The notes under the pieces are model-generated. The model saw only the letters and a program-made list of their open reading frames with translations. It did no database searches and was not told the origin of the DNA. 64,000 nt of DNA, from contig NC_092680.1 in the NCBI RefSeq assembly GCF_964355755.1, forward strand, positions 4,131,001 through 4,195,000, written 5' to 3'. The position numbers and the translations under genes were made by a program. Source of the DNA: Antedon mediterranea (lineage: Eukaryota > Echinodermata > Crinoidea > Comatulida > Antedonidae). Positions 20,476-60,956 of the stretch are shown one piece after another. Position 1 is the stretch's first letter. Each line of letters opens with the position of its first letter.

Positions 20476-23400
20476 ATGTATCATCAAGGTGGAATTAAAG
20501 ATTCAAAGCATTTTGTAGAAGATTCGTTGTTTGTCAGAAGAAACAACGAGATATTTTATAGTAATTGCGATATTCCCGGTTATGTCGGTGCAGCCCCGTA
20601 CAGTGGTGAGAGACATTGGACTAACAGACAGTGGAGAGACGATATGGATATTGCTACAACTGAACACAGAGGAAAGAACTTGGCTCTACAAAGCATGGTA
20701 AATATGCCGATTAAAAGACGCATACGGGACGATGAGGAAGAGGAAGTAAAAGGGAGATGTTGTGGGTCAAGCTTCGATGTCTTCAGTGACGAGACATCAT
20801 TCCATGGCTTAAAACACATCAAGGGAGGAAACAACTGGAGCAGAAGGTAAGTGAAAAGAAGAATATACATGTAAGGTCATATAAAAACATTGCCGATATT
20901 GTTGCTCTTTATAGCTTGGTTCCCACTAGAACGTAACGCAAGGACGTAAACGCAACGCAAGTGAATTGACCAATCACAAGCGATGGCTTATTCGCTTGTG
21001 ATTGCTAACTGTCTATAACTTCGCTTGTCATTGGTTAAAACGCTTGCGTTGCGTTTACGTCCTTGCGTTACGTTCTAGTGGGAACCAAGCTTAAGGTAAA
21101 TTTTATTCGCTCAATTCTGATTTTAAAACTATACAAAATAGTTTGCTTTGACTTATCTTCATTAATTTTGAAAGCGGGCAATACATCTTTATACGTCAGT
21201 GAATCAGTAGGCTTAAGTTTCTGCTATATCACATCTCCTTCGTTGCCTTCCTTTTGTATGTTATCCTTTTACAGCGATGACTTGTCATTCATTATTATTA
21301 AAAACCATTATAACCAATATGTCCTTCTCTTTTTTGTATTTGTATTATCGGGCTCACAAAATATATTTTAAATTCTCCTTTTTTCAGAATATCTTGGTTG
21401 ATAATTCTCATATTGGCTTTGATTGGTCTCACATATCAAATACAACGTTCAGTAAGCAAGTACTTTGATTATCCGAAAAACACCAACTTGGATTATGTTA
21501 CCAAATCATCAGTACCGTTTCCTAAAGTTACCGTGTGCAATATCAATATGTTCAAGTAAGTATTCTGATCGATCCTTGTGTATAAAGCTCTGTTTACACT
21601 ATCAAAGTATGTTGCCACATTTAATTCACGTGGGTTGCGGGTCCTAGCCAAACATAACCAAGGGTTAACATACGGTTCGTAGTACTGTGTCAGTACATTA
21701 TTTTGTTCACGGACGTTTAGGCAAAATCCACTATTCTATACGATGCAAGAGATCCATCTGAAAATAACAAGAATAATAGAACAGGCTACCACCCCTTCCC
21801 ACAATGTACCGCTCACAAACCGAAAAAAGCTTAGACCGAAACAAGCTTAGACCGATCCATATACCATATGATTAAGAAAACAGTTGTGTATCTGTTGAAT
21901 ATAAAGCTCTGTCTACAATCAAACTAATTTGACAACAAAGAATGTGATGTGCCCAAATATGGTAGTGATATACCCAAATATGATAGTGATATGACATCAT
22001 CATATCTATATGGGACATCACATTTTTTATCACATTAAAGTTTTATAGTAGACAGAGCTTAAAGCTCAGGTACAGGCATAAATTTTAAATATAATATCTG
22101 GTTAATTGTACATACAGAATTCAAGACGAAAAAACATGAATTTCCCGTAATATGGTCGAATACGGTACAAAATTTTGCAAAATTCTTCCATAAAAACCAG
22201 GAAGACTTTTGTTTCAGTAGTTAGGTAGTTTACCTAATGTAATAACATGTCTGGTGACTCCCTAGAAGGTGAAAAAAGATGGTGGATATACGGTGGATAA
22301 TTTTTATAACAGAAAATATACTGCATTGTCGAAATTATAACAAAAGTACAAATACAAAATATTAAAAAACTCATTTACCAAAAAAGGAGGTTTTCTTCCA
22401 CGAGTTCTTGATGGTTAGACTAGGCCTACAGTAAGCAATCAGTGTTCTTACTAATTATTGATAATCTTAATTGCAAATATTGATGTCGTCATCTGAGTTT
22501 TTAATCATGTAATGTGTATGATAGTGTTACAAACGAGGTGTTAGTGTCATATTGTTTTTGTAGTACCTAGATATTTCAGGGAGATCACATTCTTCTTGGA
22601 TATTCTTATCTTTTACAAAATTAATTACATTAGAATTACAAACCAAATCGCTTAGCAACTCTATAGAATCTGTCCAACGCAGAGCATGCCGTACCATATT
22701 GGGAAGGGATTTTAGTTCGTATGACAAAGCTCTAAAGGTCTGTAACATCTCATCCCTTACTGATAGGAGAATAGCTCACAGTCTCAAATTTGCCAAGGGA
22801 ATATCTCAGACTGTTCATTCTGCTGATCTTTTACCGGTGACACGGTTTGAAAGTCATGGGAGGTTGCTCCGTAATAGTAATAACATTTCACAATTACCAT
22901 CCAGAACCGCCCGTTTCAGTAACAGCCCAATCCCTTATTTTATCCGCCTGCTTAACGCCTGATTTTCACTCATTTTTGTATAATTTATTATTTTGTATGT
23001 TTCAATTTTGTATATTTTTATTGGTCTAGGTACATGCATGTAAAAGTTACCCACAATCTGGCCTTTGGCCACTAGTGGTAACTTGTGGCATGGTGGTGTC
23101 TAATGTTTTTGATGTTTTATATGAAATAAAGAATAATAATAATAATAACATTACCTTAGTAGAACCAAACAACAACCCACTTATTTGATGATCGGTTAAT
23201 TATGTTGAAAATTATTCTTGGCAACAGACAGAATAAATTTGATTGGTTTTTTTGTGGCTACTGGTGTACAAAAGGTGGTGGAATAATGCGTAGACTCATA
23301 CATCAAAGAAATATATCGACTAAGCCTGTTTTCCACTTAGGCTAATATATTCGTGCGAATCAAACATCCCCGAGTTCTGATTGATTAAGAATAATTGTGG

Positions 23401-26400
23401 CGGGTATTTTTCAAGATGGACATCCATTAGACAGTGTATACCACGATCGGAAAACACCCCTATTTGGGGAAAATCGTTGAACCTAAATTCGTTTTAATCG
23501 TCAATAACTAATTATCTAACTTAATTTCATTAGTAAACAGGGTTACATCAGGTGGTTAAAATCAGTACCGAAAGTACGAACCAACTTTATATACCATCGA
23601 GTAAAAATTCTAGAAGTAAGGCGCGATTTACCGAATTTTGCCTTTACGTAAATTTATATATAGATGGTATAGTGGTGAAACAAGATCGGTACTAAATATA
23701 TAAGAAAGGTTCGAATACTGTTATAGCACCCGATTCTGTGTCTGTCACTATAGACTCTCTGTGCTGGAAGACTGTTGTCAGTCTGCCAGATACCTTCTAA
23801 CTGTACTAAGTATACTTTTAATACACGATATCTCTGTCATTAGGTTCCTATCTAGAGACAATGTATGGGGCTTTGTACGAATCTGTGTTTAAGCTTGCAT
23901 TTTTTTAATTATGTGGAAAAAACAAAATGTGACTTATCTGACTGGGCTGCCTCTCAGAAGCGTTGGTTTTTTTTTTGTATTTCACCACTCTCGGTTTAAA
24001 TCTATTGTAATTTATAGAGAAATAAATGTTACGTTGGACTTGATTTTGACTGTACGTAAATAACGGGTTCTTTAGTTTATGTAAATCTATGTTGATAATG
24101 TAAACCGGATTACGTTATTTCAGATTTGATGAGGTAACTCCATTAATGGGTGGCTTCGTATACTTTTTCATATACGGTCTTCGATACCTTCAAAGTCTGA
24201 CACCTGACGTTGGTATAACTACGGCAGATGACGATAATTGGGTATTAGACGAAACTAAATACCCCGGTGATAAAAATCTACAACAATTTATCAAGTATAA
24301 TGCTCATCGGATGGAAGAAATGCTGCAAGTGTAAGTGTATTCTTTACACAATTGTTTTGACATTTTCTCTTTTTTATGATGGAAATCAGATTCGTAGATT
24401 CTAAAATGGTTAAGCAACATTATTATCACTCATATTTACCTTATACCCGATTCACACGACGTACACACATCTTACAAAAAGTAGCACTTTAACAAAAAAT
24501 GCGTTACCATTTCGTTTTACGTGTGAATCTAAGTCTAGGCTGTATACGGCGATTTGGTTTAATATTCTTAAAGAGAAAAACAGTTTGTTGAAGACACATT
24601 TACAACAAATACAGAGTCTTAAACACCTTAAGTAGATAATATCCGATATTATTGTAAGTAAATTAAATTAATACTGGTATTACCTACTGCAGATGTATGT
24701 TCAATGGTGTTGAATGCGGCCCGAGTAATTTTACGCTAACCTACACAAATTACGGAGCGTGCTATGTCTTCAATCCACCAACTGGCAAGACAAATATAAA
24801 AAATGCAGGTACGGTATGAAACTGTTTAAATTTGTATAGTTATAGTATTCCTTTTTTCCTATTCAACAATACAATTAGGCCTAATTTAATTAACCATATG
24901 ACAGAAAAGGATTCGTTTAAACCATCGTGTATAATAACATTTTGGTTGGATTGTTTCTAACTTTTTTGGATCTAGTTTTCAAGCTTCTACTATCAAACTA
25001 GTTTGACGAAAAAAAAAGGTGTGAAGTGCCAAAATATGGTAGTGATATGAACATATATGGTAGTGATATGACATTATCATATCCATATATGTCACATTTG
25101 TTGTCACAAAGTTTGATAGTGTAGATAAAGCTTTAGACGTAGACATTGTCTTGTCTGGTACGGATGAAACATTATATTAAACCGAGATGAAACGTGGTAA
25201 AAACTTTAATATATTGTTATTCATATTAATATATTTATACTGCATTAGTATCACTAATTTCTGGTTTATGAGTGGTTTCCATTGAGAGAAACAACGCAGC
25301 GAGTTGACAAATGATAAGCAACAGTTAGATTGATCCGTCGCTTGTGATTGGTCAAACCACTTACGTTGCGCTTCCGTCCTTGCATTGCGTCTCATAGTGG
25401 GAACCAAGCAATAACATTAAACTAACCAATGAATTATGTATTCTAGGACAACGCCGTGGACTTAGCATGATACTCAATGTTGAGCACATACAGTACATAT
25501 CGGCTCCGAGAGAAAACGTCGGTTTCAGAATCGCAATTGACGGCCAGAACGACATCCCGGATTTAGAGGCGTCAGGCGTGGATGTCGCCACTGGAATGCG
25601 CGCGTCAATAGGCATACGAAAACAAACTGTAAGTTTAGGAGTCTGCTAAAAATGGAAACAGTGGACCCTTTTTTTTTCAATATGCACGTAAAGCGTTTGT
25701 GCTCTTAAATTAAATTCTTGTAAATTTGTGTTGATTTGTATATCTTGTTCAGTACATTATTTGCTTTAATAATTGGAGAGGACCTCTCTTTAGACTACGT
25801 ACACGACTGTGTAACGAATTTTCGCCCGGAGTACTTTTGGACTTGCTTGAATCACACGAACTCAATTTTTTTAATTCCCCTGTTTTGCCCTTCCCTGATT
25901 AAACTTGGCAAGGGTCTATTTGAAGTTTTCTCAATGTAATGTTCCCAGATAACCTCGTTACCAAAACCACATGGAACGTGTATTGAAAGCGGACATAGGC
26001 AGCTGAAGTACACAAACGATTCGTACACGCAATCTCGCTGTTACCTTGAATGTGAAACTGATTATTTTATGGAGGCGTGCGGATGCCGGACTTACTACGT
26101 ACCTGGCAGTAAGTGAGCTTTAATTCACTTCAAATTTCTAAAATCGTATTGTTTCTTGTATTTGCCACGTAGATTAGTTTGGCCACGTTATGACAAACAC
26201 AAATAATTATATAATGACGGGTTCTGTGTTTGATGTGGTGTCAAGTAATGCAATGGTTTGACTTGTATTGTACAACTTATCCAGCTAGCTGAAATTGTTT
26301 ATTTTAGATGCAGATCAAGTGTTCTGTTCGCCGGCTAACTTAACTGGATGCTACCTCCCAAAATACGGTAAGAAGACCACTCTGAATGTTCTTGTAATCA

Positions 26401-29400
26401 TCTCTATGGCAAAATCAATGTCATCATGAAACTACAAAAAAACATGGTGGTTGAATAACAACCATCTTGGTTGAACTTGTGTAATCATAATAGTAAAACT
26501 CAAACGCGTTGGTTTGTTGGCACTAAAACTGTGGCGGTTCAACAACCATTTCACCCAGTGTCGATAAATTGTGTTTGTTTGTTCTGTTAATATTACAGGC
26601 TGATAACAATATGTTATTCTAACCCATTTACAGTGCAATTATTAAACGTATATCCTGACTTTTCTATTTGAAGTGTGATATATAAATCTATAGTCATTCA
26701 ACAATCACCACTGAAACAGTACTCGTATTTAATTTAATTCTTTCACATTGGTCATCGATTTTTGCTATTTAAACATTTTCAAGTTTATTTAGTAAATTAG
26801 TTGATTGACATATTTCAGAAAGCTATCAACTGAAAATGCAATTAAACAGCTTAAAAGCCGTCATAAAGTGGTAATTAGTGTTGAATATTCCCTTTTCTTC
26901 ATTATTTATGTCAATATTTATTCCGATTTTAAAACTTTTGAAACGAGTGCGTATACTCGTGACAAAGAGAAGAAGATTGATCATTTTATTACATAAGGAC
27001 CTCCGTGTTATTAGGTCTAGTAAGTGATTGTGATGATCAGTGATGATCATAATAATCATTATGATCATCAAACGATAGTATGATCATCAGATGATAATGA
27101 TCATGGTGATCATCAGATGATAGTGATCATTCCAAGTTAAATTACTGGTCTATTCATTTTTTTTTAAATAATTCAATTTGAACTTTTTAACAATGATTTG
27201 TAAGTATTTAAAAATATAAAATAATAATATTTAAAACGTTTTCGGCTTTTTTAAAATAACGATGTAAAGTCGGTTAATGTCCGTTTATACTATCGCACGA
27301 TCAACGACGATACACTTTGTCTACAGAAAACAAATACACTAGAAACTATAAAACAACCCATGATCCATATTGTCATGACGTCACGATCAATAATAACAAC
27401 CTCAATCAGTATATTGTAACGATGTTATTGTTTTTACTGATCATGACGTTATTTTTATTGCATTTCTTTTGTTTTCTGCAAAAAAATGCATATTTTGTCT
27501 ACGGTATCTATCGTCGGTCGTTATTGTCTCAGTGTAAACGGGCCTTTAACTTAGCTTAAGATATATGTATTTGTTATAATAATAATAAATATATTATCTA
27601 TATTTACAGACGAATTTTCTGATCATCGAGAGGAGTACTGTGACTGTAAAGAGGCATGTGACGTTGAAAACTTTCTGAAAACGCCGTCGTATAGTCGTTT
27701 TCCTTCTCGCGGTGTGCCACAGACGTTTGTTGTGACTAACCAGCACAAATACTTTGCACTAGGCCTAGGATTTAAAGTCAAGTAAGTATCTTTATTGTTT
27801 ACAAGCCAAAGGTACCGCTAACACTGAGATAGAGATAGATTTGATCAATAAAACACTGTATTACTGTACCTCTGTTTAAATCTACCCGTATACTTACATA
27901 CGTCCTCTACTAACTTCCAAAACAAAACGTATAGTAACTCATGTATTGCTAAAAACGCATGAAATACCAATATATTGCCATATAGTAATATATAGTTATA
28001 GTATAGATTCATGTTTGAGGCTGATTGATGCAAAAATGTGTTAGACCCATATATTGTTTGAAGGTTTGCATGTTGAAATCAAATGTTGATATAAAGTTTG
28101 CGGTACACCACGTATATAGAACTAAGAACTGTTGCCTTTCTCGAAGTTTCGATCAATATACAGTACTTTGATCGTCCTCAGGAGTGAGAATTCTCAAAGT
28201 ATATTGATCGAAACGTTGAGAAACTAACAGTTCTTCTTAGAACTATATACGTGGTGTACCGCAAACTTGATATCAAAATGTGTTTTTGTTGCTATTCTAC
28301 TACGCATTAAAAGATTTCGTCGTTTTGTGTCTGTATGTTTGGTAAAATCATAAATGGCTATTTCATGATATCTCGCGGAATTCCTGCCAATGGCACTAAC
28401 GCGGAACGACTACGTGTGTTGGGAATTGAATTGAATTGACATCAACGTAAAAAATATCTATTACCCAAAAGTGTTTTGTTTGCTTTTTGTTTCCAAACAG
28501 AAACTGAAATACATTCTTAATAATAACAACGATTAGTTTTTAATCGGTTTTGCTAATTTTTTTAGACGAAGCATGGAGGCAACACGAAACGCCATTTCAG
28601 AACAGTTGCTTGAATCTGTAGGTGACATGGTAGATGAAACGGCCGATGAACTTAACATGCAGGGTGTGTTTGAAGTGGACCAAGAATATGTTGCACAATT
28701 TGAATGGCAATTCTCAATATTTTGCTATGATATGATATTTTATTTGGTCCACATACTCGGCGATAATATATATTACGATGTTACGGCGGCTTTAAGTGAA
28801 GACGACGAGTTTAACAAGACACATACTGGAGTTGATTCCGATTTCTATCAAGAGATTCTAGAAGAAGCTGATAAAGGACTTCGTAACCAGATTGACGCTA
28901 TACACGAAACAATGCTAATCGCCACCAAAGAAACCCCATCGGCGAACTTGACCGAAGAAGACGCAGAACTCTTTACTGACGTATTATTGGGTAAACTAAT
29001 CGTGATTGCTTATCCTCTAGTTTGGGATTCCTGTTTTGCGTTTGGCATACACATTTACACCACCAGTGATATATTGTTCTTAACGCAAGAATACATAGCG
29101 TAAGTTATATACTTTTAAGGTTCATTTATATCAAAATCAAAATGCACATTATTACAGAATATCCATACTCTAGAATGATACCATTATTATGTGGAGATAT
29201 TTTAAATAATTTTTATCATCAACATTTTTCTATAGCCTACATTTAAAAATCGATAAGACTTCTTAGTAAACAACAACAGAATACTAAGCTCCGGAGATCA
29301 AAGTATTTATCTGTGGCTGCGACACGATCGTTCCACGCCCCTAAGAGACACTGCGTGCCGCGGAGAATATGTGCAATACAGGAGTATAGGCTACAGTAGT

Positions 29401-31890
29401 AAAATTGGTATTTTTCGCAGCTAGACAAAGGATCAAAGGACGAACTCAGTGTCCGGTTAGATTTTCTTGAGTAGACCAAGCTCTTCTATTATCTAGTATT
29501 ATGACACAACAGAATAACAGTTACACTAATTTAATTCCATAGTGATAATTTGGCTCGAGTGGACATCTACTATGAAACATTGAACGTCGAAGAGGTAGTA
29601 GAGCAACCGGGCTACGAGTTTTTCTCTATCGTATGTAAGTAGTCCATACGTATCGTTTTCTTATTTATAGATCAGCATCAATAACAATACAAACAAGAAA
29701 GCCACTCCGAGAGTGCATACCTCCGCCTACTGTACAATTCTCCTACTTAAGATTTCTCCGGAAAAAAAAAATATATATATATATATGTGTGCGTGTGTGT
29801 GTGTGTGTGTCTTAATGCTGTTTGTGATTTAGGCTAATTTCACTACAAGCATGCGTATGCGAGTTTGGTGTAATGGTTATGTAACAAGTCTTTCAATTAA
29901 CAATAGCTTCAGTTGACTACCAACAGCAACGCGAAAATCAAAACGAGTGAATTTGAAAAGAAATAGGTTTTTTAAACTATTCGCATCAAAAAAGGACATT
30001 AAATCAAATTATTATTAAATTACAAATCACAAATTATAACTCTTGCCTCTTGTACAAAAATGACGTTTTTTGGACAAGTGTTTCTCGAAAAAATGCTCCT
30101 TGGCGGAGGTAAATAAATGAAGAATTCTGAGCTATAGCTATTTAAATAATACAGTGCTTTTAGTATCTAGATGACTGTCAATAGTCAGAGTCTACCTAAT
30201 GACAGATTCAGAATCAGTTTAATTTGTGGTACGTGTTCAGTTAAAACAACCCAATTGGTTAACGCATAATAACATAGTGACAGATAACAGGTATTAAACG
30301 TATACTTAATACACATAGACTCGTATCTAGATGACTGTCAATAGTCAGTTAGAGTCTACCTAATGACAGATTCAGAATCAGTTTAATTTGTATACATTTT
30401 CAGTTAAAACAAGACAATTGGTTAACGCATAATAACATAGTGACAGATAACATGTATTAAACGTATACTTAATACACATACGCCCGTATTCTTAAACCGG
30501 ACTTTAGTCGTAGTTTGAGCTAAAACTAAAAAAATGACGTCATTTTAATTCATAAACCGAACTTCAACTAAATCACCGACTAAATCAGGCCAACCTCGAC
30601 TAAATCGAGACGGATTTTGATAGATTTTTTTAGTCCTGGAGGGGGCAGACTAAATGGTCGACTAAATGGTTTTTAAACGATGTTTATAAAAAAACGTAAC
30701 AGCCATTGAGTTGTTATATTGGCCAGATATTGAAGAATGAAATATCTATATTTATATTAGCTTAATTAAATATACATTGGTATAAATTATAATAATGAAA
30801 ATCATCTTTATTTACAACTGTATACAAATTACATTATTTTCTTCGCGCAAGTTCGACTTGAGCTACGTCACGCCATAGCGACAATGGGAGATGCGGCAAT
30901 TCACCACGCGATGGAATGTTTAGGGGGCCTAGCGCTTTCTTGTCACGCTATGAAGTGCGTGGTTCGTGGTTCGTGGGCCTAGAAAATATAAAAGTTACCG
31001 TACCGCCATGGTTCCTAAATATATTTTGAAGATTTTATTTGTTGTTAATCAAATATACTTCACTATTAATTAATTAATACTGATATTGTTCTAATAATTA
31101 ACGATTAAAATTATTTTTCATGTATATAGTCCTGATGCGTAAAAAGTGTTGTAAGAAATGGAAAGTGATATCAATGCGCAAAATTTCGTCTGCTCGATCC
31201 TCAAATACTCTCTTGTCATTGGCCAATGTATAGCCTTTGTTACCCAGACGTGTGCAACTCGACTAAAAGCTCGACTTCATTAAGTCGAAGTGCAAACTTC
31301 GATTACTTCGTTTTTGAATCGAATTTGAAGTAATAGCTCGAACTACGACTTTTCCAAGTCGAACTTCGAACTACGACTAAAGTCCGGTTTAAGAATACGG
31401 GCGTTAGACTCGTATCTAGATGACTGTCAATAGTCAGTTAGAGTCTACCTAATGACAGATTCAGAATCAGTTTAATGTGTATACGTGTTAAGTTAAAACA
31501 AGACAATTGGTTAACGCATAATAACATAGTGACAGATAACATGTATTAAACGTATACTTAATACACATAGACCCGTATCTAGATGACTGTCAATAGTCAC
31601 TTAGAATCTACCTAATGACAACTGCAGAATCGGGTAAATTTGTATAGACGTGTACAGTTAAAAAACACAATTGGTAACGCACAGTAAATATAAGTAAGTA
31701 AGTCTGTTGAAAATGAAGTTTGTAACCGATTAACTGCGTCTTATTATGTATTATTAATTTTACTTTTGCAGGCGATCTTGGTGGTGCTCTGGGGCTATTC
31801 TTTGGTGCCAGTCTTGTAGCATTTGTTGAAGCGATTGATTTCTGGCTCATTAAAGGATGCTGTGCACCGAAAAAGAAACCAATGAAATGA
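20476..31890 (+). CDS. DEG/ENaC (ASIC-like) sodium channel, 726 aa
   Basis: Eleven exons: 20476-20846, 21388-21555, 24124-24330, 24693-24808, 25447-25628, 25949-26108, 26308-26367, 27610-27781, 28566-29099, 29543-29634, 31772-31890. All have AG/GT borders and consistent phase (2181 nt). I start at ATG 20476; an upstream in-frame TTG is not used. In order: cytoplasmic N-terminus with the gating motif HG (110-111), first membrane segment (about 125-145), FPKVTVCN, extracellular cysteine-rich finger/thumb (GACYVFN, CYLECETDYFMEACGC, EYCDCKEAC), then a 178-residue exon with no counterpart in ordinary ASIC/ENaC channels, the palm strand VDIYYETLN, and second membrane segment with selectivity filter GAS (699-701) in GLFFGASL. 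Expected to be a trimeric, amiloride-type sodium channel gated by acid, peptide or mechanical force; which one cannot be read from sequence. Length is above the usual 500-600 aa because of exon 9. Introns hold MITEs B1, B5, C1, C2, K, F and a LINE relic. Confidence 0.93.
20913..21092 (+). mobile_element. MITE family B, intact copy B1
   Basis: 180 bp in intron 1 of the DEG/ENaC gene. It begins AGCTTGGTTCCCACTAGAAC and ends TTCTAGTGGGAACCAAGCTT. The terminal repeats extend inwards (GTAACGCAAGGACGTAAACG with CGTTTACGTCCTTGCGTTAC) so nearly the whole element is one hairpin. The outermost 18 bases are shared with family A. Confidence 0.8.
21583..21620 (+). repeat. MITE family C end fragment
   Basis: AAAGCTCTGTTTACACTATC matches the terminus of family C; the remainder is not alignable. 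It lies 28 bases into intron 2 of the DEG/ENaC gene. Confidence 0.35.
21904..22060 (+). mobile_element. MITE family C, copy C1
   Basis: Begins AAGCTCTGTCTACAATCAAA and ends TTATAGTAGACAGAGCTT. The interior has the family words GTGATGTGCCCAAATATGG, TAGTGATATACCC and GACATCATCAT. About 157 bp, in intron 2 of the DEG/ENaC gene. Confidence 0.8.
22600..23148 (+). pseudogene. LINE 3' fragment (reverse transcriptase C-terminus) R1
   Basis: One frame from about 22600 to the stop at 22960-22962 reads as the C-terminal part of a non-LTR retrotransposon polymerase: ESVQRRACRTILGRDFSSY, then ALKVCNISSLTDRRIAHSLK, FARGI-like FAKGISQ, and an ending RLLNA. A 3' UTR follows, with a self-complementary stretch (CTGGCCTTTGGCCACTAGTG) and ends in AATAAAGAATAATAATAATAAT at 23126-23148. 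The element is 5' truncated, in sense orientation inside intron 2 of the DEG/ENaC gene. Its open frame is intact, suggesting a fairly recent insertion. Confidence 0.8.
24458..24536. repeat. Small element with TTCACACG ends
   Basis: ATTCACACGACGTACAC at the left and CGTTTTACGTGTGAAT at the right are inverted copies around an 80-base segment. It is a candidate MITE fragment in intron 3 of the DEG/ENaC gene. Confidence 0.35.
24981..25133 (+). mobile_element. MITE family C, copy C2
   Basis: AAGCTTCTACTATCAAACTA at the left; TTTGATAGTGTAGATAAAGC at the right; interior GTGAAGTGCCAAAATATGG and GATATGACATTATCATATCC. In intron 4 of the DEG/ENaC gene. Confidence 0.75.
25268..25410 (+). mobile_element. 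MITE family B, copy B5
   Basis: Diverged copy: GAGTGGTTTCCATTGAGAG at the left, CTCATAGTGGGAACCAAGC at the right, with arms GTTGACAAATGATAAGCAAC and GTCGCTTGTGATTGGTCAA. It ends 36 bases before exon 5 of the DEG/ENaC gene, so it lies across the region where the branch point and polypyrimidine tract begin. Confidence 0.65.
26998..27130 (+). repeat. GATCATCAGATGAT tandem/palindromic repeat
   Basis: Recurrent GATGATCA / TGATCATCAGATGATA units over about 130 bases in intron 7 of the DEG/ENaC gene. Many GATC and TGATCA palindromes. Confidence 0.65.
27280..27548 (+). mobile_element. MITE K (CCCGTTTACACT-type ends)
   Basis: GTCCGTTTATACTATCG at the left and, inverted, GGCCCGTTTACACTGAG at the right, with a second matching block ACGACGATA near each end. 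About 270 bp without coding capacity, in intron 7 of the DEG/ENaC gene. End sequence of this type is common in hAT-like MITEs, but I see no clear 8-bp target duplication. Confidence 0.6.
28086..28274. mobile_element. Palindromic element G, 189 bp
   Basis: Near-perfect inverted repeat: TTGATATAAAGTTTGCGGTA at the left and TACCGCAAACTTGATATCAA at the right, continuing through CACCACGTATATAGAAC. The centre holds a further hairpin (TTTGATCGTCCTCAGG). In intron 8 of the DEG/ENaC gene. Could be a foldback transposon; no open frame. Confidence 0.75.
28566..29099 (+). other. Exon 9 of DEG/ENaC gene: frame-neutral 534-nt insertion exon
   Basis: Encodes residues 479-657. It starts and ends in the same phase and is a multiple of three. 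Encoded features: an amphipathic acidic start (EATRNAISEQLLES), two hydrophobic stretches (FSIFCYDMIFYLVHIL and LIVIAYPLVWDSCFAFG), two cysteines (one in each hydrophobic stretch), and sequons NKT and NLT. The position corresponds to the short knuckle helix between the CDC..C cluster and the palm strand in ASIC1. I recognise no homologous domain. Confidence 0.85.
29698..30113 (+). repeat. Dispersed repeat I, copy I1, with (AT)n(GT)n
   Basis: Starts CACTCCGAGAGTGCATACCT and ends near TTGGCGGAGGTA; an AT/GT dinucleotide run lies at 29772-29809. The start recurs at 50255 and, more weakly, at 45885, and the terminal GCGGAGGTA at 46056. Class unknown. In intron 10 of the DEG/ENaC gene. Confidence 0.5.
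30162..31690 (+). repeat. 162-bp tandem repeat, 4 copies, split by an insertion
   Basis: Units begin with TATCTAGATGACTGTCAATA at about 30162, 30323, 31412 and 31574 and contain TAATGACAGATTCAGAATCA and TTGGTTAACGCATAATAACA. The second and third units are separated by transposon F (30481-31403); without it the array is continuous. The fourth copy is the most diverged. In intron 10 of the DEG/ENaC gene. Confidence 0.85.
30481..31403. mobile_element. Non-autonomous DNA transposon F, 923 bp
   Basis: Long terminal inverted repeats: CGCCCGTATTCTTAAACCGG at the left and CCGGTTTAAGAATACGGGCG at the right, continuing inward through ACTTTAGTCGTAGTT. The flanks are ATA and TTA, an imperfect 3-base TWA duplication as known for PIF/Harbinger elements, or a simpler TA. 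No transposase frame. The insertion point inside the 162-bp tandem array shows that it came after the array had formed. Confidence 0.8.
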
Positions 31891-36100: not shown

Positions 36101-36529
36101 ATATTCCTTACTATTTTCTGAAAAAGAGCTAGTTCATTTGCTTGATAGTCTGAAATCAACTTGCAAATTTCCGACTCTTCAGTTCGAACCTGAAAAAAAT
36201 ATATATAACCATATTTACTTCTTTATTTTCTTTAACTAGTATTTCATAATTAAATGAATATTAATATTTAAAAATTAAATGTAATTTTTTAGTACCAGAA
36301 CATAAACTTGATTTCCGTCATCTTCATCTTTTGCAACACGTATCTCCATGGAAAATGGTTGGATATTTCTATTTATTCTTTTTACAAATTCATCATGTCC
36401 ATTTTCTACATGGTACACCTGGAATTCTGCACATGCATGGGCATGAAGTCTTATCACCTCCTCGCATGACATCACTCCTTTTGTCATAAATGATTGAAGA
36501 GAAAGACGGTGGGCATCGGTCATTGCCAT
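33180..36529 (-). CDS. NSMCE1, SMC5/6 complex RING subunit, 259 aa
   Basis: Six minus-strand exons: 36296-36529, 36112-36189, 35574-35717, 34870-34986, 34088-34217, 33180-33256 (780 nt, phases agree). It is close in length and sequence to vertebrate NSMCE1 (about 266 aa). NSE1 binds the MAGE-family NSE3 and acts as the RING-like E3 ubiquitin ligase of the SMC5/6 complex in DNA repair. The start reads MAMTDAHR with LMTKGV-type winged-helix sequence; the middle has TGMASSTDVLN; the variant RING is C4HC3 with C182, C185, C195, C200, H205, C208, C221 and C224. The second pair is spaced CSNINC, two residues wider than in human. The C-terminus is a run of eight Ser, then TSKKRKR, a likely nuclear-localisation tail. 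The first exon's donor is GTACTA, a weak one. Head-to-head with VPS28. Confidence 0.93.
33880..33961 (+). repeat. Dispersed repeat H, copy H1
   Basis: TTGGTTGGTCGGTCGGTGGG followed by AATTTGAGCACACGACTGCA and GCCATGTATATGGCCTTGTT. The same order recurs at 43150 and 59098. In intron 5 of NSMCE1. Confidence 0.6.
34350..34675 (+). mobile_element. MITE family D, copy D3
   Basis: Alignable to D2: TTCACTTTGACCAAAAACGG, CTGCCAGACAATGGGTTTTG, ACAGAAGTGAATAACATTAG, and a right end GATGGACAATACATTTTTA. The left end is decayed. In intron 4 of NSMCE1. Confidence 0.7.
35985..36098 (-). mobile_element. MITE family C, copy C5
   Basis: Interior CACATATGGACATGATGATG and GGGAACATCACAC; right end GTCAGTGTAGACAGAGCTTT. 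It is in intron 2 of NSMCE1 with its end 13 bases from the exon-2 donor site. Confidence 0.65.
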
Positions 36530-36639
36530 GGTTTTTTTTATCTAAGTAAACAAAGTAAAAAATATAATAATATATAATGTCAAAATTCCAAACAACTTTC
36601 AAGAACCATGCAATTCGCGTAGTCACTAATTATAGCCTA

Positions 36640-57793: not shown

Positions 57794-60700
57794 ATGAGCG
57801 GTAACAATTTCAAATCGGTGAGTTATTAAAGCGTTTTTATAAAATCTGTTGACAGTTATGAGTTGCTATTAATTCACGATTTAGAAGCATAATTTGGTAA
57901 TGTTAGGCATATAAATAAAGTTCATCTTCTTAGGAAAGGAGGAGAAGGGTTAGGTTCGACAAAAAAAGTAGCCCTACTCTTAAGAAGAAGTTTAATATGT
58001 TTGGGGAGAAATTTGCGACAAGAAACTTGAGTTAGGCCTACTAGAGATTTTGTCGAATGTTGGTTAGGTATCGTTGCTTCCTTTCATTTATTTCAGCAGT
58101 TTATTGTTAGCATTTCTCTCTTCAGTAACAATTTGACTAAACTCGTTAAGTATTGTCCAATCTTTAAGTTCAATTTTTACACAAATCCTATTCAAATGAA
58201 TGAATACTTGTAGGCCTAAGAAAGAAAAACCAACTCACTTTACTTACAAACTATAAATGATTCTTAAAAGTATATTAGCAATTTATATATTAAGAGACTT
58301 TGTTTGAATATTGGTGGGACATCTTTGTTTTTATTCGCAGATTTTTTCCTATATTTGTATTTATTTCACCATTTAAACATGAAATACCTTTTTTTATAAG
58401 TAATATTTCAGACTTATTTCAGTCTGATTTGTTCAATCTGTAGTTTATCTCACTTTATTGTCAGAATAGTTTTCCATAAATCATATTTAAATTGATAAAT
58501 CGATAACACAATTTAAGATACGAGAAGGAACATTTAAAAAAAATCTATATTATAGTATTATAATAAAATATATATATTATAGTAATGTTAATAATGATAA
58601 TAATTTTAGTAATGAGAAATTATCACTTAAAGGAAAATTTGGAAACTATTTATTTGATTTTACCTTTAAAACAAAAGTAGGTCAGCTTTTTGTATCATTT
58701 CACATACTTTTTTATATACGATTATAAGCGAATAATTTTGAGACAAATGCAGGAATTAAAACACGTAAATGTTTTACTGAAATAAATATACATAACCATG
58801 AATTAAAATAGGCAATACAGACAAACAGACAGATAGACAGGGGATTCTTTGATGTTCTATGCGGAGTACAGTTCCATCAATCAAGGTTAAGTCGAATATT
58901 TGACAGACGTCTTCAGACAAGGTGGCAAATTACAAATCCGCTAAGTGAATTATAAGAATAGAAGTTATATAGTTATTAGTTCTACCAACGCCCCTAAAAA
59001 ACTAACAGCATGGTCACACACAATGAAAGCGAATTAGTTCCATTTCATATAGTAAAACAAATAACATTCCTTTGCTTTGCATTTTTAGTTTAGTCTATAG
59101 TTCACTATGTCGGTCGGTCGGTCTGTCGGTCTGTCTGTCGGTCCGGTATCACTATGCGTTTTATCGCTTTTCTGTATTTTTTTAACTGTTTTGATGTACA
59201 GAAAAGTTTTAAAGTACATAACTTTTTGAAAGTTCATTTTTTCTGAGAGCACGCGACTTATGGCTGTTGGCCTTGTTTTTAATAACTTTGATTTATTGAT
59301 AATTCAAAATGTCAAACTGTATGAATTATGAGTTTCTAGTATCTATTAAAACGAATTTACAAATGCAATATATAACATCAGCTTATGTCTATATTAAAAG
59401 AATGCATTTGGTTCTATAGTTAATTCAGATACAGTGATTAAGTTCACTTAGGTTGACCCTGGTCTCCCCAATTTCAGGTTTTTTTTTTTATGTCTATATT
59501 AAAAATACCGAATAAATAATGAAATGAAAGTCAATCCACGTCAATCGTCCAAATTTTATTCAGGTGTACCTAGGCCTATTAAACATCCGTTTCCTTTCGA
59601 TATATTTAAGTAGGTGTTTAAAGTGGCGGCTTTCTATTTTCGAATCTTCCGTTGGAACTTGAAAAATAGTACAACCCATATTCAAAACAATATGATTGTT
59701 GTTTAGATCATTCTTATAGTTTATTTATATTATCTTAGTATCTTTACGGATCTTAAATTTCCATCTTACCAAAACATCCTGCCTGCCGTCTGTCTATGTT
59801 GATATTCTGCAACATTTACTTATATTTTAATCTCATCTTTTCTTTTTCTATAATTTGCTTTTTCGCCCTTCCCCTAGATTCAAAAGAAGGGCGTATTTTA
59901 ATACGAATAATAAACCTATATCTGAAATATACTAGTTTTCTTATCTATTCCTTGCAATAATAGTAAGTAATAAACCATGTAGTCGACTTTTTAAAATTAT
60001 GATAATGAGGTCAGCTAAGATGAGGTCAATCAAAAATTAGGTACGACTTCTACGGCAGATTCTCGTATCGGTGTATTTGAAAATGTATAATGCCAGTAAA
60101 ACAGATGTAGGAGAAAGGTTATAGTCAGCAGACAAGAAACTACGGTCCATGTATAGTCTCTAGACAAGACAGTACGAGATTTGAGTGCTTTTTAAAATGT
60201 TGTCTTACAATTAATATATTGTTTATTATAATTGTTGTTGCTTCAGATCAAACTTCAATTATTCACTGTGATGCTGGTTTGGTCCCAGACAACATATTCC
60301 ACAACAACAGTGTCTTCTCTCTATCCTGTAGGAGATTTGTTCAAAGTCAAAATTCCAAGAAACTATGGCGTCGCACCCGGGTCTCGAGTTAACGGTAAGT
60401 GGTCAATTGTGTAAATAGTGCATTGACAAACAATATTTTTAATCAGACCTATACGCAGAATCGTGATCACAATGTGCGTACTGTATTCATCTTCAACTTG
60501 TATATTAACACGCCATATTGACATTAGACTGCTTCTGAAACATTGTATTTAAGAATGCAAATATTTCAATTTGAAATGATATCTGTGTACTATTTGTTTG
60601 TAAAAGGATATCAGACGTGTGATATACTTCTACAACACACAATTTATAGTTTATAATCATACAAATTATGGGGTTTTTTTTCAGAATCTGAAGCCGATGG

Positions 60701-60956
60701 CGCTTGTCCTTTCCGGATGGAAAGAGATTACGACCCCAATCGGATCCCTGCCACAATCTGGAGAGCTAAGAACCTGACCCGTTTCTGTTTAGACGTCATC
60801 ACCAGTGTTCCAACGAACGAGCTGTGCCATCCATTTGAGATCAAAATGCAGATGTTGAAGAACTCTACCATTCAGGATCACCGTGGTCATTTTTACTATC
60901 GTTTAGAAGAAGAGCGAATTCCCGTTGCGTTCCTTTGTAAGCGGGCAACAGTTTAA
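57794..60956 (+). CDS. Interleukin-17-like cytokine, 147 aa
   Basis: Three exons: 57794-57817, 60247-60394, 60685-60956 (444 nt; AG/GT borders; phases agree). Eight residues come from exon 1, then a hydrophobic signal segment IKLQLFTVMLVW. The mature part has the family signature DPNRIPATIWRAK (residues 74-86), followed by C92, and a C-terminal strand ending FLCKR with C142. It matches the IL-17 pattern DP.R.P..IW.AK with the right spacings. IL-17s are secreted cystine-knot-like dimers signalling through IL-17 receptors in immunity; invertebrate deuterostomes have several. Odd: of the four canonical cysteines only C92 and C142 are kept; positions of the other pair are N87 and F140. Two extra cysteines, C65 and C105, could form another bridge. 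Sequons at N87 and N117. Poly(A) signal at 61174. Confidence 0.88.
59098..59280 (+). repeat. Dispersed repeat H, copy H3
   Basis: TCGGTCGGTCGGTCTGTCGG expansion followed about 130 bases later by GAGCACGCGACTTATGGCTG and TTGGCCTTGTTTTT. It is longer than H1 and H2 and lies in intron 1 of the IL-17 gene. Confidence 0.55.

Follow-up and report, generated by a model that had tools for sequence, protein, structure and literature searches.

An additional exon in the knuckle of at least nine DEG/ENaC channel genes of Antedon mediterranea

A predicted DEG/ENaC channel gene of Antedon mediterranea carries a 534-nt exon (exon 9, positions 28566-29099, + strand) in the knuckle of its extracellular domain, and comparable exons were identified at the same place in at least eight paralogs of the same genome. 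We consider it probable that this exon encodes an extracellular subdomain, constitutive and glycosylated, that lies between the two knuckle helices, is common to at least nine paralogs and probably shapes gating or the contact with a ligand or the matrix. DEG/ENaC channels, all built on one fold, answer to stimuli as different as protons, peptides, force and proteases, which raises the question of how new sensitivities arise among them. The analysed stretch of 64,000 nucleotides (the window) is C11:4131001-4195000 of a 354-Mb assembly with 18 contigs.

The gene spans positions 20476-31890 on the + strand and, as a sequence-based prediction, comprises 11 exons with GT-AG introns throughout and a single open frame of 726 aa. 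Exon 1 (20476-20846) encodes the cytosolic N-terminus with an HG motif at residues 110-111, and exon 2 (21388-21555) encodes TM1 and the start of the extracellular domain, as placed by phmmer alignment to ASIC1. The gene model and phmmer assign the extracellular core to exon 3 (24124-24330), part of which we take to be the finger region by ASIC anatomy, exon 4 (24693-24808), exon 5 (25447-25628), and the cysteine-rich exons 6 (25949-26108, presumably including the thumb region) and 7 (26308-26367). Exon 8 (27610-27781) contains the CDCKEAC cluster, a PS motif, the clade-specific tail GVPQTF..KYFALGLGFKV, which we infer to be the first knuckle helix, and a phase-2 donor. Exon 9, with phase 2 at both ends and the helix-7-like end TQEYI, is followed by exon 10 (29543-29634), whose acceptor lies at a conserved phase-2 position and which encodes the last palm strand DNLARVDIYYETLN, and by exon 11 (31772-31890), which encodes TM2 with the GAS motif and the stop codon.

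DEG/ENaC channels typically have an HG motif before TM1 and a G-x-S motif in TM2. Both are present in the predicted protein (HG as above, GAS from residue 699), together with two hydrophobic segments (hydropathy 1.93 for TM1 and 1.91 for TM2) that flank a cysteine-rich extracellular domain. The Pfam ASC family (PF00858) matched the protein in two stretches (E 9.3e-90, 302 bits), the first of which begins at residue 103, and the alignment to ASIC1 by phmmer spans both TM1 and TM2. No second DEG/ENaC gene was found in the 64-kb window by tblastn.

Exon 9 carries a coding signal beyond chance. Its 177 codons would be open by chance with P = 3.4e-6 under the trinucleotide composition of the introns, and none of 1208 overlapping intron windows of the same length was open. 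Its codon score was 0.168 bits per codon, compared with an intron-window mean of -0.106 (sd 0.067, max 0.063), a test that is soft on its own because known exons, each left out of training, ranged from -0.28 to 0.44. By direct reading, the acceptor (a T-rich tract followed by AG) and the donor (GC|gtaagt) both look strong. That exon 9 lies outside the mRNA, through an error of the gene model or because the locus is a pseudogene, is hardly credible given the open frame and codon signal, the intact flanking exons, a paralog whose insert exon is homologous (E 1.8e-8) and the selection that acts on inserts elsewhere in the group, described below. Thus, as first proposed from the letters of this DNA, exon 9 is a real, frame-neutral exon of a DEG/ENaC gene.

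The same proposal placed exon 9 between the CDCKEAC cluster and the palm strand VDIYYETLN, and this position was borne out (residues 432-438 in exon 8 and 663-671 in exon 10). The closest solved relatives are structures of ASIC1 (PDB 4nyk and 3ij4, phmmer E 3e-57), with which the protein shares the order of the core, the CxCxxxC cluster, the helix-7 motif, the palm strand and the GAS motif. Different from ASIC1, it has about 184 additional residues in the knuckle. Alignments by phmmer to ASIC1 and ASIC2 break at query residues 456-457 and resume at residue 652, where TQEYIADNLARVDIYYETLN stands opposite SEQYIGENILVLDIFFEALN; query residue 457 corresponds to about ASIC residues 385-389 and residue 652 to about 395-400, with some variation in chain numbering. 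Because the alignment resumes inside exon 9, the last residues of the exon belong to the conserved fold, and the boundaries of the additional sequence differ from those of the exon. The PS motif and the N of the NL motif are 206 residues apart here, whereas this distance is 22 residues in ASIC1 and 22 or 23 in two insert-less paralogs, and the ASIC type of knuckle with two short helices and a short loop is therefore not found. By this alignment, the additional residues lie between the two putative knuckle helices.

The end of exon 9 resembles the second knuckle helix motif of ASIC (TQEYIA|DN in the window, SEQYIGEN in ASIC), and all nine insert exons end with [YF][IM] and a split codon (TQEYI, TRDYM, TAEFI, ATEFI, VKNYI, AVDYM three times, and TTEYM). 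Compared with ASIC SEQYI/SEKYI, these ends reached a mean BLOSUM62 score of 9.33, whereas 20,000 null draws had a mean of -3.17 and a maximum of 5.89; the null consists of random 5-mers of the same inserts and ignores kinship, and the nine ends are not independent since the three C8 copies and the pair at 12.62 and 12.65 Mb of C11 are closely related. Exon-8 ends scored likewise were negative in five of six cases, with one score of 6. The most economical interpretation is that the old helix-7 end is encoded by exon 9. Skipping of the exon, which joins exons 8 and 10 in frame through an Asn codon (AA|T), as originally predicted, and gives an open protein of 548 aa, would consequently remove an element of the canonical fold as well. 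The skipped form would have near-normal spacing, with 28 residues from PS to NL versus 22-23, and would lack the helix-7-like motif.

A PF00858 search of the genome gave at least 90 exon-level matches among the best 93 of 217 candidates. A list of paralogs was built by a query with exons 9-11, reading of the loci, and further searches that used the exon-8 peptide or individual inserts as queries. Besides the gene in the window (C11, 4.16 Mb), at least eight DEG/ENaC genes with an open insert exon at the same place were identified, at 12.60, 12.62, 12.65, 20.84 and 20.93 Mb on C11 and at 18.499, 18.515 and 18.535 Mb on C8; the total of nine is a lower bound, because scoring in the genome searches was limited to the top candidates. 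At C11:20.926-20.928 Mb, an exon 31% identical to the insert (the match with E 1.8e-8) is followed by exons for the palm and TM2 that are 64% and 74% identical, respectively. The exon 9-11 query also matched further palm and TM2 exons on C11 and C8. The nine insert exons measure 534 (window), 489, 531, 561, 516, 474, 471, 480 and 480 nt, with 157-187 codons in the eight paralogs. All of them are open, with lengths in multiples of three, and show phase 2-2 with the chosen splice sites, which in the paralogs were picked by eye among listed candidates so that the phase is inferred. A homolog of exon 8 was found for eight of the nine genes (not for C11:12.60), and its donor lies at the same codon and in phase 2 in all eight, including the window gene; three of the paralogs have a donor that does not resemble GTAAGT. 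Other DEG/ENaC genes form large clusters at C8:4.32-4.45 Mb and C5:26.05-26.48 Mb, and four C8 loci read in the former have GLS in place of GAS in TM2.

Ten DEG/ENaC loci without the insert, namely those for which both flanks were read (four of them near-copies from one cluster; L019 and L042 are not counted), contain no insert-sized exon between the CxCxxxC motif and the palm exon, the longest open stretch there being 50-105 codons, a count that an insert split into several short exons would escape. The intron before the palm exon lies at the same codon and in phase 2 in each of the eight genes read, namely that of the window and seven insert-less paralogs. In L011 and L018, the CxCxxxC exon extends through the knuckle to this intron, and in L009, L013, L014, L017 and L020 an extra phase-2 intron directly follows the CxCxxxC motif. 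As phase-2 introns occur on both sides of the knuckle in these paralogs, the 2-2 symmetry of exon 9 does not in itself point to a cassette.

In a tree of 46 palm and TM2 columns, eight insert genes form one side of a branch with support 100/99, which is one of only two well-supported inner branches among the 14 of this short alignment. The tree covers eight of the nine insert genes, all but C11:20.84; its other nine rows are seven paralogs, chick ASIC1 and C2:6.51, for which the presence of an insert was not read. The eight insert genes in the tree all have GAS in TM2, a motif also found in L040, L041 and L042 and so not exclusive to them, and the insert-less L011, L013, L014, L017, L018 and L020 have GIS, GMS, GLS or GVS. 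Comparison of four insert subgroups by hhalign gave nothing significant, the best marginal hit (34% probability) being between the window group and C11:20.84. Because the subgroup sequences are not demonstrably related, the argument for a single origin of the insert is drawn from its place, phase, flanking exons and the tree.

These results bear on the original prediction that exon 9 is an optional cassette, an exon added in an old phase-2 intron that is included or skipped to give a decorated or a plain channel. Frame-neutral skipping, the conserved place and phase of the intron between exons 9 and 10, and an exon-8 tail that leaves a near-normal knuckle length would suit such an arrangement. 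We nevertheless regard it as distinctly unlikely, since each of the nine genes found in the group has the exon, the helix-7-like motif is part of it, phase 2-2 is commonplace around the knuckle, and both splice sites of exon 9 look strong. The presence of a conserved-fold motif in exon 9 corrects the optional reading, and the insert seems to be a permanent, rapidly evolving domain of one channel subfamily and not a splicing option. Two histories may have produced it: a sequence with an intron may have been inserted between helix 6 and helix 7, which the motif favours, or a new exon may have arisen in an ancestral phase-2 intron and its end taken over the helix-7 role, a course that the near-normal length of the exon-8 tail permits and favours.

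The two cysteines (C532 and C635) and two sequons (N562 and N606) noted earlier in exon 9 are present. Cysteines number 0-3 per insert and are not conserved among the nine. The nine inserts contain 33 sequons (including the two of the window gene), compared with 15.1 in shuffles, and none of 5,000 shuffles reached 33, an enrichment to which sequons shared by related copies contribute. The hydrophobic helices also described for exon 9 correspond to a real hydrophobic stretch, with a maximum 19-residue Kyte-Doolittle value of 1.73, and do not extend to the other eight inserts, whose maxima are 0.47-1.21. Extra membrane segments formed by a hairpin of exon 9 that enters the membrane might be imagined from the closeness of 1.73 to the 1.93 of TM1; the low values of the other inserts, together with the distance of the DEG/ENaC knuckle from the membrane, make this highly improbable.

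Searches with exon 9 gave no match in Pfam, none of significance among PDB sequences (best E 0.21), and no similarity to the rest of its own protein. For seven inserts (C11:20.84 and C8:18.499 were not included), the best Pfam results were two single-member matches with E 0.22 and 0.34, and a 7-row profile gave no significant PDB hit (best E 0.12). Pattern searches for relatives outside this genome yielded 81 stretches in genome_contigs and three in viral_contigs, none of them confirmed, and carry little weight since these are not collections of animal genomes. An AlphaFold2 model of exon 9 alone was helical, with a mean pLDDT of 47, too poor for a fold search. An internal duplication was also considered and rejected, as local alignment of the two halves of exon 9 was not significant against 1000 shuffles (p 0.41-0.96).

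The inserts of close paralog pairs are under purifying selection and evolve faster than the pore region. In four pairs, three of which were drawn from the same three C8 genes and are thus not independent, dN/dS of the insert was 0.45, 0.54, 0.32 and 0.32, in each case significantly below 1 (Fisher p 0.0033, 0.0065, 5.6e-7 and 1.3e-7), compared with 0.16, 0.03, 0.06 and 0.08 for palm plus TM2. Insert dN exceeded that of exon 8, palm and TM2 together in three of the four pairs (p 2.9e-13, 1.4e-4 and 4.4e-7); the excess was not significant in the fourth (p 0.06), in which exon 8 had a dN/dS of 0.60 (p 0.23). The pair of window exon 9 and its nearest insert, C11:20.93, yields no dN/dS because synonymous sites are saturated (pS 0.79).

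Fast divergence of this kind would also be expected if DNA had simply turned coding at a length-tolerant loop, under weak constraint and with no dedicated function. A tolerant knuckle is indeed described for the delta-ENaC of hystricognath rodents including guinea-pig, in which exons 11 and 12 of SCNN1D are fused with intron DNA in the knuckle, the added residues lying between the equivalents of Gln-509 and Ala-522 of the human alpha subunit, and the guinea-pig channel with the enlarged knuckle remains functional (PMC8662647). When this enlarged knuckle was swapped, baseline activity and the response to protease were both unchanged (PMC13109204). These guinea-pig findings are a strong counter-case to a role of the insert in gating or in contacts with a ligand or partner. 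The two systems are alike in having extra coding sequence at the knuckle, within the pair of exons that encode it. In delta-ENaC, however, an intron became coding and the exons were fused, whereas here no fusion with a retained intron is seen and the insert is a separate 534-nt exon with its own acceptor, donor and introns, with counterparts in eight genes. Filler without function is further opposed by the retention of 157-187 codons across nine genes, the dN/dS values significantly below 1 in the tested pairs, the sequon enrichment and the conserved boundaries, and we regard it as doubtful.

In the preferred reading of a constitutive subdomain, exon 9 would always be included in the mRNA, and the additional block would leave the knuckle after helix 6 and return at helix 7. 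The insert would not be a removable decoration, because exon 9 would also carry knuckle helix 7. The block may lie at the outer top corner of the trimer, beside the finger of the neighbouring subunit, where by analogy it could form a glycosylated cap with an effect on gating or with contacts to a peptide, the matrix or a partner protein, and its fast divergence might tune each paralog differently. The alpha6 helix of the ENaC knuckle touches the alpha2 helix of the neighbouring finger (PMC7413742), and alpha6 of FaNaC1 forms part of the FMRFamide pocket together with the neighbouring finger (PMC11026163). FaNaC channels are more distant from the protein described here than ASIC1 (phmmer E 7.9e-25 for 7yvb and 2e-19 for FaNaC1 8on7), and the excerpt on FaNaC1 mentions no insert of the exon-9 kind (PMC11026163). 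Nine paralogs with an orphan, fast-evolving block beside the site that binds peptide in FaNaC1 offer a natural series for asking whether insertions in the knuckle give rise to new gating inputs. A bolder variant, in which the inserts form a new class of extracellular sensor domain, diversified over at least nine paralogs in the manner of a receptor family with a different ligand for each copy beside the neighbouring finger, seems unlikely.

Proton gating of the ASIC type is not predicted. The core determinants in mouse ASIC1, a wrist His (H73) and a palm Lys (K211) (PMC10507113), align by phmmer with K and N here (the chick correspondence is our own reading), and these residues are thus not conserved. 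The same paper reports a placozoan channel that lacks those determinants and is still proton-activated (PMC10507113). Most Trichoplax channels are reported to have insertions between the knuckle helices (PMC6827283); these TadNaC insertions are given there as predicted loops, different from the 157-187 codons on a dedicated exon found here. In searches of open-licence full texts, no described DEG/ENaC channel with such an insert was found, in agreement with the original prediction.

Several other features were identified in the window. Intron 8, upstream of exon 9, contains nested inverted repeats at 28076-28286 (53-nt arms 89% and 25-nt arms 92% complementary) that look like a small hairpin transposon, and intron 1 contains a 71-nt inverted repeat (20913-21091, 93% complementary). 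Intron 10 (30153-31741) contains a 174-nt repeat in four copies, with 61-100% identity to the reference copy, arranged as two pairs around a segment that has 39-nt inverted repeats at its ends, as though a repeat array had been invaded by a mobile element. Outside the channel gene, an open stretch on the - strand at 13071-14042 matches the ligand-binding and transmembrane domains of Cys-loop receptors (Pfam E 5.5e-11 and 3.2e-13), a piece of a gene for Nse1 of the SMC5-6 complex lies on the - strand at 36278-36541 (Pfam E 4.1e-8), and an Interleukin-17-like domain is encoded on the + strand at 60657-60953 (Pfam E 1.3e-9).
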